Shown here: positions 5,372-59,066 of the stretch, piece by piece
Numbering within the stretch: position 1 is the stretch's first letter
How the letters are laid out: each line of letters begins with the position of its first letter
Assembly (NCBI GenBank): GCA_024628785.1
Contig: CP102404.1
Span: 558,001 to 622,000, forward strand
Direction: 5' to 3'
DNA length: 64,000 bases
Source: Fusobacteria bacterium ZRK30
GTDB lineage: Bacteria; Fusobacteriota; Fusobacteriia; Fusobacteriales; Fusobacteriaceae
Notes under the pieces: generated by a model
Told to the model about the DNA's origin: nothing
Databases searched by the model: none
What the model saw: the letters and a program-made list of their open reading frames with translations, nothing else
Program-made: the position numbers and the translations under genes

Positions 5372-6904
5372 ATGTCAAAGATACTAATTGATAATCAAAA
5401 ATTATCCATAGAGGATATAGTAAATGTAGCTAGGTTTAACTTCAAGGTGAAATTAGGTAATGGTGCAAAAGATAGAATCAATACAGCCCGAGCTGTGGTA
5501 GATAAATTTGTTGCTGAAGAGAGAGTGTCATATGGTATCACAACTGGGTTTGGTAAATTTTCTGATGTAGTTATCTCAAAGGAAGAGACAAATGATCTTC
5601 AGAGAAATCTTATTATAAGTCATGCTTGCGGGGTAGGAGAGCCCTTTGCAGAAGAGATTGTAAGAGCCATGATGGTCCTTCGTGTAAACTCATTGACAAA
5701 GGGGAATTCTGGTATCAGACTATTAACTGTGGAAAAATTAATTGAACTTTTAAATAAAGAGGTACACCCGGTAGTACCTGAAAAGGGATCTCTGGGAGCT
5801 TCAGGAGACTTGGCTCCATTATCTCACATGGTATTAACAATGCTTGGATTAGGAGAAGCTTTCTATAAGGGTGAAAGGATGGATAGTATTAAAGCTCTTG
5901 AACTGGCAGGAATAGAACCATTGCCATACTTGACTTCTAAAGAGGGATTAGCTTTAATCAACGGGACTCAGGCTATGACAGCTGTAGGAGTTTTGACTAT
6001 CTATGACGCATTAAATTTAGCTAAGATAGCTGATATTGCAGGAGCATTGACTATGGAAGCTCTTACAGGAATTAAATGTGCATTAGACCCTAGGGTACAC
6101 GAGATAAGAGGTCACAGCGGTCAGATAGATACGGCTAAAAACCTTATAAACTTAATAGACGGAAGTAAGATGATTACTAAACAGGGAGACTTAAGGGTTC
6201 AAGATGCATATGCTCTTAGGTGTATGCCGCAAATTCACGGAGCAAGTAAGGATGCACTAAGATTTATAAAGGAAAGAATAGAGATAGAGGTAAACGCTGT
6301 GACAGATAACCCGTTGATCTTCCCTGAAACAGAGGAAGCTATCTCAGCAGGAAACTTTCATGGACAGCCTATGGCACTGCCACTGGATTATATGGGAATA
6401 GCATTGGCAGAATTAGCCAATGTTTCTGAGAGAAGACTGGAAAGACTGGTAAATCCTGCATTAAGTAACGGATTGCCTGCATTTTTAACAAAATATGGAG
6501 GAGTACACTCTGGATTTATGATTGTACAATATAGTGCTGCATCAGTGGTATCAGAAAACAAAGTATTAGCACATCCTGCTTCGGTAGACTCTATACCATC
6601 TTCTGCAAACCAAGAGGATCATGTATCTATGGGAACAATTGCAGGTAGAAAAGCCAGAGATATTATGAAAAATGCAAGAAATGTAATAGCTATGGAGATA
6701 TTAGGAGCTTGTCAGGCAATAGATCTTAGAGAGGAAAACTTCTTAGGAAAAGGAACTGAAATTGCTTATAACTTTATCAGGGAAGATGTGAAGTTTATTG
6801 ATGAAGATGTAGTGATGTATAAATATATAAATAAGTGTTATGAGCTGATTTCTAGCAAAGAGATTATAGATAGAGTAGAGGGAGTAGTAGGAAAACTACT
6901 ATAG
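5372..6904 (+). CDS. hutH: histidine ammonia-lyase
   Basis: 510 residues, normal for the family. It deaminates L-histidine to urocanate plus ammonia, the first step of histidine catabolism. The Ala-Ser-Gly triad that cyclises to the MIO electrophile is at residues 143-145 in GSLGASGDLAPLSHM. Other family landmarks are YGITTGFG near the N-terminus, NGTQAMTA, the QDAYALRCMPQIHGA segment and SSANQEDHVSMG. The start is ATG after GAGGAGGG. The gene is followed 54 bases later by hutU with its own AAGGAG site, so the two form an operon, apparently driven by the promoter at 5312-5340. Tyrosine ammonia-lyase or aminomutase is an alternative for MIO enzymes, but the hut context rules for HutH. Confidence 0.93.
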   Translation: MSKILIDNQKLSIEDIVNVARFNFKVKLGNGAKDRINTARAVVDKFVAEERVSYGITTGFGKFSDVVISKEETNDLQRNLIISHACGVGEPFAEEIVRAMMVLRVNSLTKGNSGIRLLTVEKLIELLNKEVHPVVPEKGSLGASGDLAPLSHMVLTMLGLGEAFYKGERMDSIKALELAGIEPLPYLTSKEGLALINGTQAMTAVGVLTIYDALNLAKIADIAGALTMEALTGIKCALDPRVHEIRGHSGQIDTAKNLINLIDGSKMITKQGDLRVQDAYALRCMPQIHGASKDALRFIKERIEIEVNAVTDNPLIFPETEEAISAGNFHGQPMALPLDYMGIALAELANVSERRLERLVNPALSNGLPAFLTKYGGVHSGFMIVQYSAASVVSENKVLAHPASVDSIPSSANQEDHVSMGTIAGRKARDIMKNARNVIAMEILGACQAIDLREENFLGKGTEIAYNFIREDVKFIDEDVVMYKYINKCYELISSKEIIDRVEGVVGKLL

Positions 6905-6958
6905 TTTTAGAAAAATCAAGGATTAAAAATTTATAACTAATAAAAGGAGATAATCATA

Positions 6959-8983
6959 ATGTTTACAAATAACGATATAAAAGATGCAATGACTATAAAA
7001 TTAACTGATATACCAAAGGAAACTCCTAAATTTGATTCTAAATACAGGAGAGCTCCTAAAAGAGATCTTACATTGTCTCAAGATGAAGTGGAATTAGCTA
7101 TAAAAAATGCATTGAGGTATATACCGGAAGAATTTCATGCTGAACTGGCTCCTGAATTTTTAGAGGAACTATATGAAACTGGAAGGATTTACGGGTATAG
7201 ATTTAGACCAGAAGGAAGGTTATCTGGGAAATCTATAGATGAATATAAAGGTAAGTGTATGGAAGGTAAAGCATTTCAAGTAATGATGGATAATAACTTA
7301 GATTTTGATATCTGCTTATATCCATATGAATTGGTAACTTATGGGGAAACAGGGCAGGTATGCCAAAACTGGATGCAATACCAATTGATTAAAAGATATT
7401 TAGAGGAATTAACTCAAGATCAGACACTGGTGATACAATCAGGGCATCCAATGGGATTATTCAGATCACACCCTTCTGCACCTAGAACTATTATTACAAA
7501 TGCACTTATGGTAGGGATGTTTGATGACGATGAAAACTATATCAGAGCAGCTGCATTAGGAGTTGCAAACTATGGTCAAATGACTGCCGGTGGATGGATG
7601 TATATCGGACCGCAAGGGATAGTTCACGGGACTTATTCTACCATCTTAAATGCAGGTAGATTATTCTTAGGAGTACCTCAGGATGGAGATTTAAAAGGTA
7701 AACTATTTGTAACTTCTGGATTAGGAGGAATGTCAGGAGCCCAGGGTAAAGCTGTTGAGATTGCAAATGGTGTAGGAATAATTGCAGAGGTAGATTATTC
7801 AAGGATAGAAACCAGACATTCACAAGGATGGGTATCTAGTATAGCTCGTTCTCCAAAGGAAGCCTTTGACCAGGTACAGGATTATTTTAAAGCAGAAAAA
7901 CCTGCTGCAATAGCATTTCATGGAAATATCGTGGACTTACTCGAGTATGCAGCAGATAACAATATAAATATAGATCTACTTTCTGACCAGACTTCTTGTC
8001 ATGCAGTCTATGACGGTGGATATTGTCCGCAAGGGATCACTTTTGAGGAAAGAACTAGACTATTAGCAGAGGATAAAGACAAATTTATAGAATTGGTAAA
8101 CAGAACACTGGTTAGTCATTATAATGTAATTAAAAAACTTACAGACAAGGGAACTTATTTCTTTGATTATGGAAATGCTTTCTTAAAATCTGTCTATGAT
8201 GCCGGTGTAAAAGAGATCTCTAAAAATGGTAGAGATGATAAAGGTGGATTTATCTACCCTTCTTACGTAGAAGATGTATTGGGGCCTGAATTATTTGATT
8301 ATGGATATGGACCATTTAGATGGGTCTGCCTAAGCGGTAAAAAAGAAGATCTATTAAAAACAGATGCAGCTGCTATGAGTTGTATCGATCCTAATAGAAG
8401 ATATCAGGATAGAGATAACTATATCTGGGTGAGAGATGCTGATAAAAATGGATTAGTAGTAGGAACTCAAGCCAGAATCTTATACCAGGATGCCATGGGA
8501 AGAACCAATATTGCACTGAAATTTAATGAGATGGTAAGAAATGGAGAGGTTGGTCCTATCATGCTTGGACGTGACCATCATGATGTTTCAGGAACAGATT
8601 CACCATTTAGAGAAACTTCTAATATCAAGGATGGATCAAATATAATGGCAGATATGGCTACCCATTGTTTTGCCGGAAATGCAGCTCGTGGAATGAGTCT
8701 TATTGCTCTTCACAATGGTGGTGGAGTAGGTATAGGTAAATCTATCAACGGTGGATTTGGAATGGTATTAGACGGCTCTAAGAGAGTCGACGACATCTTG
8801 TATCAGGCTATGCCATGGGATGTAATGGGAGGAGTTGCCAGACGTGCCTGGGCTAGAAATAAGAACTCTATCACTACATCTATGGAATATAATAAAAATA
8901 ATGCAGGAACAGATCATATTACCCTGCCTTATATTCCAAGTGAAGATTTGATTAAAAATTTAGTAGCCAAGAAATTTAACTAG
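6959..8983 (+). CDS. hutU: urocanate hydratase
   Basis: 674 residues; the long form of urocanase (many bacterial HutU are about 550). It converts urocanate to 4-imidazolone-5-propionate using a tightly bound NAD. Recognisable segments are GWMYIGPQGIVHGT, the Gly-rich TSGLGGMSGAQGKA nucleotide-binding region, EVDYSRIETRHSQGW, SDQTSCHAVYDGGYCPQG, ALHNGGGVGIGKSINGG and LGRDHHDVSGTDSPFRET. It follows hutH in the same operon and is closed by a strong terminator. hutG, on the opposite strand, supplies the last step. Confidence 0.93.
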   Translation: MFTNNDIKDAMTIKLTDIPKETPKFDSKYRRAPKRDLTLSQDEVELAIKNALRYIPEEFHAELAPEFLEELYETGRIYGYRFRPEGRLSGKSIDEYKGKCMEGKAFQVMMDNNLDFDICLYPYELVTYGETGQVCQNWMQYQLIKRYLEELTQDQTLVIQSGHPMGLFRSHPSAPRTIITNALMVGMFDDDENYIRAAALGVANYGQMTAGGWMYIGPQGIVHGTYSTILNAGRLFLGVPQDGDLKGKLFVTSGLGGMSGAQGKAVEIANGVGIIAEVDYSRIETRHSQGWVSSIARSPKEAFDQVQDYFKAEKPAAIAFHGNIVDLLEYAADNNINIDLLSDQTSCHAVYDGGYCPQGITFEERTRLLAEDKDKFIELVNRTLVSHYNVIKKLTDKGTYFFDYGNAFLKSVYDAGVKEISKNGRDDKGGFIYPSYVEDVLGPELFDYGYGPFRWVCLSGKKEDLLKTDAAAMSCIDPNRRYQDRDNYIWVRDADKNGLVVGTQARILYQDAMGRTNIALKFNEMVRNGEVGPIMLGRDHHDVSGTDSPFRETSNIKDGSNIMADMATHCFAGNAARGMSLIALHNGGGVGIGKSINGGFGMVLDGSKRVDDILYQAMPWDVMGGVARRAWARNKNSITTSMEYNKNNAGTDHITLPYIPSEDLIKNLVAKKFN

Positions 8984-48452: not shown

Positions 48453-48764
48453 ATGAAAAAACTAATTTTAATAGGTGTATGTTTAATGGTATTAGGAGGC
48501 TGCACCTCAAATAGAATTAAAGATGAAGGGGTAAAGAGAGATGGTGTTTTAACTGCTGTCCAGATGTCTACTTGGATGTATGGTACCCATGTTTTATCAG
48601 ATGATACAGGGAAACCCTTGACTGCTCTAAGTGGTCAAAAAATTGATTTAGATGAGTATGAGGGGGAAAAAGTAGAGGTAAGAGGAATTTTAAAGGATGG
48701 GTATCCTGTAGATTCAGGGCCTGAATATTTAGAAGTTCAGTCCATAGAGATAATAAAAGAATAA
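48453..48764 (+). CDS. small lipoprotein
   Basis: 103 residues with a lipobox (MKKLILIGVCLMVLGGCTSN, Cys17). The mature part is a likely OB-like or beta fold (KIDLDEYEGEKVEVRGILKDGYPVDSGPEYLEVQSIEII); this closing phrase resembles the OB-like small lipoproteins that recur in several bacteria, but the identity is uncertain. GATGGAGG ribosome binding site; 11 bases after the nucleoside kinase, so likely cotranscribed. Function unknown. Confidence 0.6.
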   Translation: MKKLILIGVCLMVLGGCTSNRIKDEGVKRDGVLTAVQMSTWMYGTHVLSDDTGKPLTALSGQKIDLDEYEGEKVEVRGILKDGYPVDSGPEYLEVQSIEIIKE

Positions 48765-48767
48765 GTT

Positions 48768-48810
48768 ATAAGAGGGTAATGATCAAATGATCATTACCCT
48801 CTGTTTTTAT
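48768..48810. terminator. bidirectional terminator after small lipoprotein
   Basis: 15-base perfect arms: AGAGGGTAATGATCA (48771-48785) and TGATCATTACCCTCT (48788-48802), loop of two bases, then CTG-TTTTT. Shared with the convergent SIR2-like gene. Confidence 0.92.
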
Positions 48811-50927
48811 TGTATAATCTCTTTATATGTTGTGTTTTGAACAGCATTGAAAGCTTGAATTTCCAATTGATCTTCTGTATGAGTTATGTTTGAACTGTCT
48901 ACGATAATCTCTGTTGATTCTATAAAGGATCTTGTGAACCCTAAAAAGTTGATACTGATAGGGTAACTTAATACAAGTTTTTCTGTCTTACTTATATCTC
49001 CTGAAAAATTGGTTCTGATGGTAATATTTCCAGATGTTAGCTTAGGAGTATTATTATAATAACTAAATAAAACCTGTAAACTTCTAGTATTTTTTAGAAG
49101 TTCCTTTAAATTAATGTCTCTGGTTTTTATCTGCTTCTTTATAGAGAGGTATTTATCTATTGTGTCTAAAATTATATCTAATTTTTCTACATATTCATTT
49201 GAAATAATCTTGAAATTTCCACTGATTTTTTTATTTTTAAAATTTAGTTCAAATCCGCTGAATAAATTTTTAAAGAATATATAAATATTTCTTCCCTTTA
49301 TATTGACTGTATTTTCAGAAATTTTGTAGGCGAACTTCATGACACTATCATTTTCTAATAGAAGTCTCAAAGTGAAATCATGATTTTTAAAATCTACAAC
49401 TTGATGTTTACCTGACATATGAGATTTAATTGCAACTCCATAGATTGTCTGGTCATTACACCTTATATCCACCTTTCCGGCAAATATTTTTTTCTCTAAT
49501 TTTACCTGAGGAAATTCAGCAGATTCAAAAGGAATCTTTATATCCAAAGCTTTATAGTGAACGATCTCTGAAAAATCATCAACCTTGTAAGATGGATATC
49601 TTTTTTCCCTAAACTCAACTAATCTTCTTTGTCTATTTCTAACTTCTGTTTCAATTATCTCCCCTTTTAGTGTGTTCCCATCCAGGTATAGGGGGATTTC
49701 TAAGTTTTCTACGATATATTCCTCTTCTATCGATTCGTTCTCTGCTGTTTTAACTTCTACATCTTCAAGAGTGTTTTCTTCTATCGTGAACTCGTCTTGA
49801 ACTTCTGTTGATCCATTCTCTATTGTTTTAATCTTTACATTTTCTTCTACAGTCTCAAAGGTGTCCTCAGTTATTGTTTCTTCCTTTTCTGTAGGAACCT
49901 CATGGATCTCCAGGTTATCTGTTTTTTCGTCTGTTACTATGACTTCTTCCTTTAGTTCAGTTGATTCGATATCTATAGTTTCAACTTCTAAATTATTTTC
50001 TACAGTCTCGCAAGGTTCCTCAACTACAGCTTTTTCTTTTTCTGTTTCTGTAGGGATCTCATGGATCTCTAGATTATCTGCTTTTTCATCTATTGCTGTA
50101 ACTTCCTCTGAAATTGTAGAATTTAATTCACATTCTTCAACTGCTTCAACCTTTTTTTTAATGGGGTCGATGCTTTCATTATTAAAATATAAAGCCATTT
50201 TTTTTACAAAATTTAAATCATCTTCGTAGATAAATTCGAATTCATTTGAAATTAACCATGATTCATCTTCCAAAGAGATAGGGTTAGAAGTTACAAAATA
50301 TCTAGCTGTATTGGATAAATCTGTTTTAGAAAATACCAAGCTAAGAATATCTTTGGTATCTTCATCCAGGTTAACTCCCAGTAAGATCAAATTTTTATTT
50401 TCTAATTCTTTGTTTAACTTTTCCCAAAAATGATTGTATAACTTCAATTTTTTAACCTTTCTCATATTTTGAGAGGTTAATATAATCCTTTCTGTATGAT
50501 TATAATCTCCTAAGATCTTAAATAAATTAACATTGGATCTTGTGATCTCTTTTTCGCAAAAGACATTATGGATCTCTCCTTCTTTCCATATAGATTCTAA
50601 AATTTCAGAATGGTCGTGGGTGATTATAGTGTCTATAGCACCGATCTCTGAAAGATAGGAATAGGGATTTGATTTCCCTTCTAATTCTAATTCGCTGCTG
50701 AGAAGTGAGATTAAATTCATCATATTTCCAGTAGCACTGTCTAAAAATACCTGGGAAACTTCGGTCAATCTCTCCCTGTTTTCTACCTTTTCTTTTGTAT
50801 CCTCGCTGAGTTCCTTATAGATCGTTAAGGCTAACTCGTTTTTTGTAGGAATATTTAATTTTTTATTTATATTATCGCCCATCCAAAGTGCATAATTGTT
50901 ATAATTTACATTTTTAAAAATTTCCAA
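48807..50927 (-). CDS. SIR2-like protein with degenerate catalytic motifs, repeat linker and unknown C-terminal domain
   Basis: 706 residues. Residues about 10-245 read like the SIR2-like NAD-binding fold used in bacterial immune proteins: YALWMGDNINKKLNIPTKNEL (normally a GAG...S motif), IDTIITHDHSEILES (normally TTNYD...LE), NLFKILGDYNHTERIILT (normally KLHG) and NLILLGVNLDEDTKDIL (FlGyslsD). The catalytic Asn and His are replaced, so enzyme activity is doubtful. Residues about 255-405 are a Glu/Thr-rich linker with two 53-residue tandem repeats (274-326, 327-379) and a partial third. Residues 410-706 form a separate beta/alpha domain I do not recognise. No membrane segment. TTG start after GGAGGG. 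Defence or regulatory function is inference. Confidence 0.6.
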   Translation of the reverse strand: MEIFKNVNYNNYALWMGDNINKKLNIPTKNELALTIYKELSEDTKEKVENRERLTEVSQVFLDSATGNMMNLISLLSSELELEGKSNPYSYLSEIGAIDTIITHDHSEILESIWKEGEIHNVFCEKEITRSNVNLFKILGDYNHTERIILTSQNMRKVKKLKLYNHFWEKLNKELENKNLILLGVNLDEDTKDILSLVFSKTDLSNTARYFVTSNPISLEDESWLISNEFEFIYEDDLNFVKKMALYFNNESIDPIKKKVEAVEECELNSTISEEVTAIDEKADNLEIHEIPTETEKEKAVVEEPCETVENNLEVETIDIESTELKEEVIVTDEKTDNLEIHEVPTEKEETITEDTFETVEENVKIKTIENGSTEVQDEFTIEENTLEDVEVKTAENESIEEEYIVENLEIPLYLDGNTLKGEIIETEVRNRQRRLVEFREKRYPSYKVDDFSEIVHYKALDIKIPFESAEFPQVKLEKKIFAGKVDIRCNDQTIYGVAIKSHMSGKHQVVDFKNHDFTLRLLLENDSVMKFAYKISENTVNIKGRNIYIFFKNLFSGFELNFKNKKISGNFKIISNEYVEKLDIILDTIDKYLSIKKQIKTRDINLKELLKNTRSLQVLFSYYNNTPKLTSGNITIRTNFSGDISKTEKLVLSYPISINFLGFTRSFIESTEIIVDSSNITHTEDQLEIQAFNAVQNTTYKEIIQ
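49791..50108 (-). repeat. two tandem 159-base units encoding the acidic linker
   Basis: Each unit encodes 53 residues, with shared EKADNLEIHEIPTE / EKTDNLEIHEVPTE and CETVENNLEVETI / FETVEENVKIKTI segments. The DNA is also similar, so this is a recent duplication; a third, partial unit follows at the gene's downstream side (residues about 380-403). Confidence 0.7.
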
Positions 50928-51067
50928 ATCATTCCCTCCTGCATAAATATGTTCGATTTATTATACTTTATTTTTCCTCTATTCACAATGAAATTTAATA
51001 AAAGCATATATATAATTTATTACTTTTGTTAAGATGTATATATATTTTTAAAGTGTTGTTAAGTTCA

Positions 51068-57199: not shown

Positions 57200-57634
57200 A
57201 TGAAATATATATTGACAATATCACTGCTATTACTTGTAGGATGTACTTCTGCTACAAAAAAAGAAATAGGAATAACAGAAGGAAAATTTTACCCGTGTCC
57301 AACCACTCCAAACTGTGTGTCCTCTATGGCCCCTAAGGAGGACTCCCACTACATAGAGCCTATTGTTTATAATAATATTACAAGAGACCTTGCTGTAGAA
57401 AAGATCACTGTAATTTTAAAGGGATTAAAAAATACCACTATTGTAGAAAAAAGTGATGAATATATCCATGTAGAGGTAAGATCATCATTTTTTAAATTTG
57501 TAGATGATGTGGAATTTTACTTTCCTGAGGGCAAAAATATTATCCATATCAGATCTTTAGCTAGAACTGGATATAGTGATTTTGGGGTAAACAGAAAAAG
57601 AATGGAAAAAATAAGAGTGCGATTCTATGAATAG
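57200..57634 (+). CDS. DUF1499 family lipoprotein
   Basis: 144 residues. Lipoprotein signal MKYILTISLLLLVGCTSAT (Cys15). DUF1499 core: CPTTPNCVSSMAPKEDSHYIEP (start of the domain with its conserved Cys-Pro and SSxxxxxxxxIxP), KSDEYIHVEVRSSFFKFVDDVEFYF and HIRSLARTGYSDFGVNRKRMEKIR. Function of DUF1499 is unknown. ATG after AAGGAGG. The cardiolipin synthase gene starts within its last codons. Confidence 0.82.
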   Translation: MKYILTISLLLLVGCTSATKKEIGITEGKFYPCPTTPNCVSSMAPKEDSHYIEPIVYNNITRDLAVEKITVILKGLKNTTIVEKSDEYIHVEVRSSFFKFVDDVEFYFPEGKNIIHIRSLARTGYSDFGVNRKRMEKIRVRFYE

Positions 57635-59066
57635 TATTTTGACAGGGGTTTATATATTAAATATTATCTTTATTATCATCATTATATTCTTTGAAAAAAA
57701 AAAAAATACAAGTACTATAATATGGATTCTTATCCTTAGCTTAACTCATATATTTGGTTTTATTCTCTATCTTTTTTTTGGATTAAGTCTAAGAAAAAGA
57801 AGGTTTACCCGTAAATATTATAAAAAATTTTCATTTGATAAGAAGAAATTTAAACAGGACATAGTGAGTGATACAAGCTCCCACCCGCAGAACAACCTGA
57901 TTCAGTTATTTAATGTAAAGAATCATGCCTATTTAAGAACCAAAAATGATATTAAATTATATAATCATGGGGAGAACCTCTTTAAGGATCTCAAAGAATC
58001 GATCAGTTCTGCTGAAAGATATATTCATATGGAATACTATATCTTTGAAAATGATGATATAGGTAATGAAATTATGGATCTGCTGATAAACAAAGCTGAA
58101 AAAGGAGTAGAGGTAAAGCTGATCTATGATGGTATGGGTTGTATTCACGTATCCAATAGTTTTTTTCAAAGACTTCAGGATGCAGGGGGGGAGGTACTTA
58201 ACTTTTTTCCTCCGTTATTTTCCCGATTTGGTCTGAGAGCTAACTATAGAACTCATAAAAAAATAGTTTTGGTTGATGGGAAGTGCGGTTTTTTAGGTGG
58301 TATGAATATAGGTGATGAATATTTAGGGGAAAATAAAAAAATTGGTTATTGGAGGGATACCCACCTCCGGATAAAGGGATCTGGGGTTTTAGGATTAGAA
58401 AAAGAATTTTTAATAAACCTGGATTTTATGAGGGAACAAAAATCATTTTTTAAGAGAAGGAAGAAGAAATTAAATTATTCCATAGATGATTACCTCCACT
58501 TTGAAAAAAGCAGTGGCCATAGTGATCTACAGATAGTCAGCAGCGGTCCGGACTATGAAGAGCCATTTATAAAAAATGGTATCTTTAAGATGATTACAGG
58601 GGCAAAAAAAAATATCTATATACAGACACCGTATTTTATCCCCGATGAGGCTATCTTAAATGCCTTAAAAATTGCTGTTATGGGTGGGATAGAAGTAAAT
58701 ATTATGATTCCCTCTAAACCTGACCATATTTTTGTCTACTGGGCAACCCTCTCCTATATTGGAGATCTGGTTAAGTTAGGAGCTAAGTGCTACACCTATG
58801 ACAATGGATTTTTACACTCCAAAGTTGTGATAGTTGATGATGAAATTTGTACTATCGGATCTACTAATATGGATATCAGGAGTTTTTTATTGAATTTTGA
58901 GATAAATGTTTTTATCTATGATCCTGAGATAGCACTTCAATTGAAGGAGGCTTTTTTAGAGGATATCGAGAGCTCTACCCTGATTACTTCTAAAAAATAT
59001 AAAAATAGAAATTTCGTAATCCGGTTTAAAGAATCGGTTTCAAAACTTCTTTCGCCAATAATGTAA
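57627..59066 (+). CDS. cls: cardiolipin synthase
   Basis: 479 residues; phospholipase D superfamily. Two N-terminal membrane segments (residues 2-22 and 35-52). The first HKD motif is THKKIVLVDGKCGFLGGMN (about residue 210) and the second LHSKVVIVDDEICTIGSTN (about 397). Produces cardiolipin by condensing two phosphatidylglycerols. It overlaps the DUF1499 gene by 8 bases and lacks a strong ribosome binding site of its own, so it is probably translationally coupled. PlsC follows 78 bases later. Confidence 0.92.
   Translation: MNSILTGVYILNIIFIIIIIFFEKKKNTSTIIWILILSLTHIFGFILYLFFGLSLRKRRFTRKYYKKFSFDKKKFKQDIVSDTSSHPQNNLIQLFNVKNHAYLRTKNDIKLYNHGENLFKDLKESISSAERYIHMEYYIFENDDIGNEIMDLLINKAEKGVEVKLIYDGMGCIHVSNSFFQRLQDAGGEVLNFFPPLFSRFGLRANYRTHKKIVLVDGKCGFLGGMNIGDEYLGENKKIGYWRDTHLRIKGSGVLGLEKEFLINLDFMREQKSFFKRRKKKLNYSIDDYLHFEKSSGHSDLQIVSSGPDYEEPFIKNGIFKMITGAKKNIYIQTPYFIPDEAILNALKIAVMGGIEVNIMIPSKPDHIFVYWATLSYIGDLVKLGAKCYTYDNGFLHSKVVIVDDEICTIGSTNMDIRSFLLNFEINVFIYDPEIALQLKEAFLEDIESSTLITSKKYKNRNFVIRFKESVSKLLSPIM

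Follow-up and report, generated by a model that had tools for sequence, protein, structure and literature searches.

Bacterial SIR2_2-type domains have mostly been studied as NAD-depleting effectors of defence, and the locus described here raises the question of what such a domain might do when it lacks its canonical catalytic motifs and is joined to a second domain of no named family. The gene lies in a stretch of 64,000 nucleotides from Fusobacteria bacterium ZRK30 (contig CP102404.1, positions 558,001 to 622,000 of the forward strand), which we refer to as the window and to which the coordinates below belong unless another locus is named. The reading that we prefer, and to which we would give about an even chance, is that the protein is a conserved, non-catalytic SIR2-like sensor or scaffold that would control its partner domain in the housekeeping stress physiology of the cell.

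Organization of the window gene

An ORF of 706 aa occupies 48807-50927 of the minus strand and begins with TTG. A TATAAT-like element and then GCAGGAGGGAATGATTTG are found 5' of this codon, so that the TTG start is well supported, and an AGGAGG ribosome-binding site lies a few bases 5' of the TTG at 50932..50937 of the same strand. Three parts can be distinguished in the protein, namely an N-domain of residues 1-250 (50178..50927, minus strand), which the Pfam SIR2_2 and PDB profile matches and a census of motifs mark as SIR2_2-like without the canonical catalytic motifs; an acidic, fast-evolving linker of residues 251-400 (49728..50177, minus strand), which contains a 53-codon tandem duplication; and a C-domain of residues 401-706 (48810..49727, minus strand), which belongs to no known family and which in most relatives is a separate downstream gene.

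Acidic residues make up 34% of the linker of the window protein. The 53-residue tandem repeat that a preliminary description of this DNA had noticed there is real at the DNA level, where nucleotides 70-222 and 229-375 of the linker, offset by 159 nt, are 76% identical across 155 columns (E 2e-17) and a partial further copy is present. The ungapped repeat is barely above shuffled sequences at the protein level (19/53 identities versus a shuffle mean of 15 and a maximum of 20), and it was not reported by Tandem Repeats Finder. Neither is the repeat conserved between species; the linkers of the relatives differ from one another, are mostly acidic and range from 9 to 577 residues. The N- and C-domains of the genus designated g12 (L051-L053) are fused through very long acidic linkers of low complexity, of 381-577 residues.

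The genes assigned by Pfam in the flanks of the window gene are those for a DAG kinase, a member of the PRK/uridine kinase family, a fumarase, a malic enzyme, a lyase and a PLD-type protein; a flanking gene of 103 aa has no match in Pfam. The PLD-type cardiolipin synthase is encoded at 57627..59066 of the plus strand, 6.7 kb from the window gene (PLDc_2, 1.2e-46). Between the window gene and the convergent gene at 48453-48764, a stem-loop of 14 pairs with a T-rich tail on the plus strand (48771..48802) might possibly serve as a shared terminator of both genes, with the reservation that such sites are no more numerous than chance would predict for the region.

Ancestry of the N-domain and the loss of its catalytic motifs

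The preliminary description had recognized in the N-terminal region the order of a SIR2-like domain and had proposed that a top match to proteins of the SIR2_2, ThsA or DSR type would support the fold; both Pfam and the family profile support the assignment. Residues 121-227 of the window protein match SIR2_2 (PF13289) with an E-value of 1.9e-8 and a score of 35 bits, where the curated cut-off is 24.5, and relatives of the protein score up to 78.9 bits. When a profile built from 22 N-domains was compared with the PDB, the best match was to ThsA (4.3e-13), with further ThsA chains also found, and positions 10-252 of the profile aligned over nearly the full length of the KomC chain (residues 9-256, 2.5e-9). 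Individual N-domain relatives match the ThsA models of PADLOC, the best at 2.6e-24; the window protein itself matches no PADLOC model. AlphaFold models made from an input of three sequences are of low confidence for both the N-domain (pLDDT 43) and the C-domain (pLDDT 37). A Foldseek search with the poor N-domain model placed DSR2, FAM118B, AVAST5 and ThsA among the top entries, all at E values of 0.02 or above and none at or below 0.001. Because neither model is usable, the assignment of the SIR2 fold derives from the sequence profiles, which support the view that the N-domain is SIR2-like and a relative of the NAD-destroying enzymes of bacterial immunity.

The motifs of the window protein read MGDN in place of GAG, ITHDHS in place of TTNYD and KILGD in place of KLHG, exactly as had been reported earlier. 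The proposal that the protein is a pseudoenzyme is supported as well, and its basis has widened from one protein to 51 sequences. Both the A and the second G of GAG are kept in 0/51 aligned N-domains, as is the catalytic His before G (ThsA H152), which is replaced by L, F, M, N or Y. The Asn of TTNYD (ThsA N112) is D in the window protein and is retained in 32/51 copies; TTNYD is lost in all Psychrilyobacter copies. When four intact SIR2 proteins of the same phylum, one of them encoded by this genome (G000:C2), are placed in that alignment, none of their motifs is missing, and the losses in the N-domain family are thus not an artefact of alignment. Studies of ThsA have shown that the N112A and H152A substitutions each abolish NAD+ cleavage, that neither mutant bound NAD+ and that H152A also disturbs oligomerisation (PMC7272460). 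We infer from these comparisons that the N-domain family is without NADase activity. Since the Asn is present in 32 of the 51 copies, some residual nucleotide binding or an unusual chemistry is conceivable.

Four positions of the N-domain profile, D64, Q156, Y167 and D194, are invariant or nearly so within the family and are absent from the intact controls. These positions bring up the alternative that the N-domain is an enzyme of altered chemistry, in which newly conserved residues would have replaced the lost ones. The substitution of GD for GAG and of GxD/N for GYS, the invariant D and Q, all new with respect to the intact controls, and the low dN/dS of the N-domain (0.06-0.12) would be in keeping with such an enzyme. 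The window protein has nevertheless lost both the general base and the Asn that binds NAD, the conserved residues may be structural, and we know of no example of such a switch of chemistry among SIR2 proteins; we regard this alternative as very unlikely.

A second, motif-intact SIR2_2 gene (VGAGVS, TTNYD, FHGD and GYS) is present in the same genome at 6493-7335 of locus L159 (contig C2 of G000, about 1156492-1157334) and has relatives in two other Psychrilyobacter genomes. Judging from its motifs, it is likely to encode a real NADase.

A constant partner and its inheritance

The preliminary description had called the C-terminal region of about 300 residues unrecognised sequence, and so it has proved, in that comparisons with Pfam, NCBIfam, PADLOC and PHROGs gave no consistent family for it and the PDB no match; the scattered weak matches to Pfam and PHROG entries involve one or two members each. 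In Pfam and the PDB the C-domain family shows no sign of the C-terminal SLOG domain of ThsA, and no member has a HAM1-type match in Pfam, although a remote homology to either is conceivable. A conserved C-terminal family, which the preliminary description had named as a sign of a new architecture, is nonetheless supported, and in most relatives the C-domain is a gene of its own. The gene had also been described as single and without a known partner, which is correct for the window locus but misleading for the family, as the C-terminal part is the partner gene in the relatives.

The distribution of the two domains was surveyed with family profiles in 98 Fusobacteriota genomes, of which 61, in 14 genera, are Fusobacteriaceae. 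One or both domains are present in 54/61 Fusobacteriaceae genomes and 11/14 genera (the union was counted by hand), with the C-domain in 52 and strong N-domain matches in 51 of the 98 genomes searched. All 52 genomes with the C-domain are those of Fusobacteriaceae, and none was found elsewhere in the phylum; one scan of genome contigs returned close relatives only, so that the restriction of the C-domain to this family is established within Fusobacteriota. Full-length fused orthologues are found within Psychrilyobacter, the genus of the window gene (g1), while most other Fusobacteriaceae have a gene of ~275 aa for the N-domain that is followed by a gene for the C-domain. This order, or a fusion, occurs at every locus that can be read across both parts, i.e., among the relatives, at 32 loci where the genes are separate and at 14 where they are fused, in addition to the window gene. 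The separate genes are adjacent on the same strand, in some cases with small spurious ORFs of the opposite strand between them, and their frames overlap by 7 nt at some loci. On the tree of N-domains the fused forms fall at five separate places, namely in g1, in a single species each of g11 and g2, in g12 and in a subclade of g8. The two domains have thus been joined or split on about five separate occasions, which argues that they function together.

Two genomes have an interrupted or shortened C-gene, with an in-frame TAA in one (G015) and a late start of the C-frame in the other (G078). Sequencing error and real change are both possible at the loci concerned, L050 (7162-8201) and L146 (6996-8492).

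On the tree, all genera represented by two or more copies are monophyletic, and the intact SIR2 genes fall outside the N-domain family, which is the pattern of vertical inheritance. The dN/dS ratios within Psychrilyobacter are 0.06-0.12 for the N-domain and 0.09-0.18 for the C-domain, with 0.21-0.47 for the linker where it could be computed; the low values mean that the protein is under strong purifying selection and that its gene is not in decay. Nearly all genomes that carry the module have a single copy of it. On contig C1 of G027 the module occurs twice together with its neighbourhood (L054/L055), at about 14.0 kb and 1799 kb; the copies are nearly identical, lie close to the two ends of the contig and are probably a circular overlap left in the assembly and not a duplication. 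The module was not found by tblastn in phage records, single-protein scans of viral contigs detected no relative of it, and among plasmid records it was found by tblastn only on pILYOP01 of Ilyobacter, a secondary replicon of 961 kb.

These patterns weigh on the suggestion, also made in the preliminary description, that the protein belongs to a defence system or is a decoy. In such a protein the dead SIR2 domain would be a sensor of phage or nucleotide, or a decoy, and the C-domain the effector. The closest relatives of known function, ThsA and KomC, are indeed phage-defence NADases, and core defence genes exist. A strongly constrained module that is inherited vertically, mostly as one copy, by most genomes of the family, that is absent from the phage and viral collections searched and that keeps to a conserved housekeeping synteny, with metabolic genes on either side of the window gene, fits such a role poorly, and the suggestion is weakened to the point where we consider it unlikely. 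ThsA of the Thoeris system (a SIR2-SLOG NADase; PDB 6lhx and 8bto) is the best match of the N-domain family in both the PDB and PADLOC; unlike ThsA, the family has no SLOG match, no GAG and no catalytic His, and its module is core and not accessory. The TIR partner of Thoeris, ThsB, was not found among the Pfam-assigned genes that flank the window gene. KomC of the Kongming system (PDB 8zsf and 9xvc), a stand-alone SIR2 NADase of 264 aa, has the size of an unfused N-gene and, like the N-domain, works with a separate partner protein. KomC's partner, KomB, is HAM1-like; the N-domain differs from KomC in the loss of its catalytic residues, and its partner, the C-domain, matches no known family.

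Genomic neighbourhood and possible roles

The housekeeping role that we prefer for the module is proposed because of its core status and its location beside genes for a small alarmone synthetase and a cardiolipin synthase. In 35 genomes, which represent 7 genera, a gene for a RelA_SpoT small alarmone synthetase lies no more than 100 bp downstream of the C-gene, and the two frames overlap at some loci; the synthetase domain (PF04607) was matched at 4.7e-21 in the L040 gene and at 8.5e-19 in the unlinked copy of the present genome. Rel plus fpRel have been listed for Fusobacteria (Atkinson 2011, PMC3153485), and the synthetase, a neighbour and not a homologue of the module, is therefore probably of the fpRel type. 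A cardiolipin synthase gene is situated within 3 kb of the N-gene at 40 loci, often in divergent orientation. The synthetase gene is not at the module locus in Psychrilyobacter, in the Ilyobacter-like g14 and in g5, where it is encoded elsewhere in the genome; the N-C pair of g14 and g5 lies downstream of a gene for Lon protease and upstream of one for glutamine synthetase III. Module without a detected synthetase of this type is found in g12, and synthetase without a detected module in g7 and g10. Module and synthetase can therefore occur apart, and their link is suggestive but not obligate. A second RelA_SpoT protein, of 420 aa, is encoded at 6140-7402 of locus L170 (contig C4 of G002); its first ~250 residues share 42% identity with the small alarmone synthetase, and it has extra C-terminal sequence.

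The close linkage invites the thought that the N-C pair might be dedicated to regulating the adjacent synthetase, which it would bind directly so as to switch (p)ppGpp synthesis on or off, and the short distances, the recurrence in seven genera and the occasional overlap of frames are what one would expect of it. The unlinked genes of g1, g5 and g14 and the genomes with one component but not the other mean, however, that neither absolutely needs the other, and a dedicated regulator of this kind seems to us rather unlikely. An obligate toxin-antitoxin pairing of the two was considered and rejected, since each occurs without the other.

According to the reading that we prefer, of a non-catalytic sensor or scaffold, the N-part would have descended from a SIR2 protein like ThsA or KomC and would have lost the canonical NAD-cleaving residues before the Fusobacteriaceae diversified. 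It might have been retained as a sensor of a nucleotide or an NAD-derived ligand (a nucleotide sensor was among the options of the preliminary description), as an oligomeric scaffold, or as both, and might act on the C-domain, its constant partner, through the flexible acidic linker, which where long would be a tether. The pair might thereby tune alarmone or envelope metabolism as parts of housekeeping stress physiology. The ligand binding, the oligomerisation and the regulatory output of the module are steps that we infer. A possible model for the scaffold role is offered by FAM118A and FAM118B, human noncanonical sirtuins that resemble bacterial antiphage SIR2 proteins and act via filament assembly and a partner (PMC12700824); unlike what we propose for the N-domain, these proteins process NAD and depend on a catalytic Asn, and they have no such C-domain.

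A more specific version, which we consider distinctly unlikely as it stands, is that an immune SIR2 fold, now retired, serves as a core sensor of NAD+, ADP-ribose or an alarmone and governs the synthesis of alarmones or the envelope physiology linked to cardiolipin, with the undescribed effector domain carrying out the control. No paper on the N-C module was found in the literature searched. The loss of catalytic motifs, together with vertical retention and an unnamed partner domain, suggests the domestication of an immune enzyme. The module is mostly single-copy and its neighbourhood yields concrete hypotheses, so that these ideas are directly testable; if the specific version were true, it would represent a housekeeping link between the SIR2-type proteins of immunity and the stringent response.
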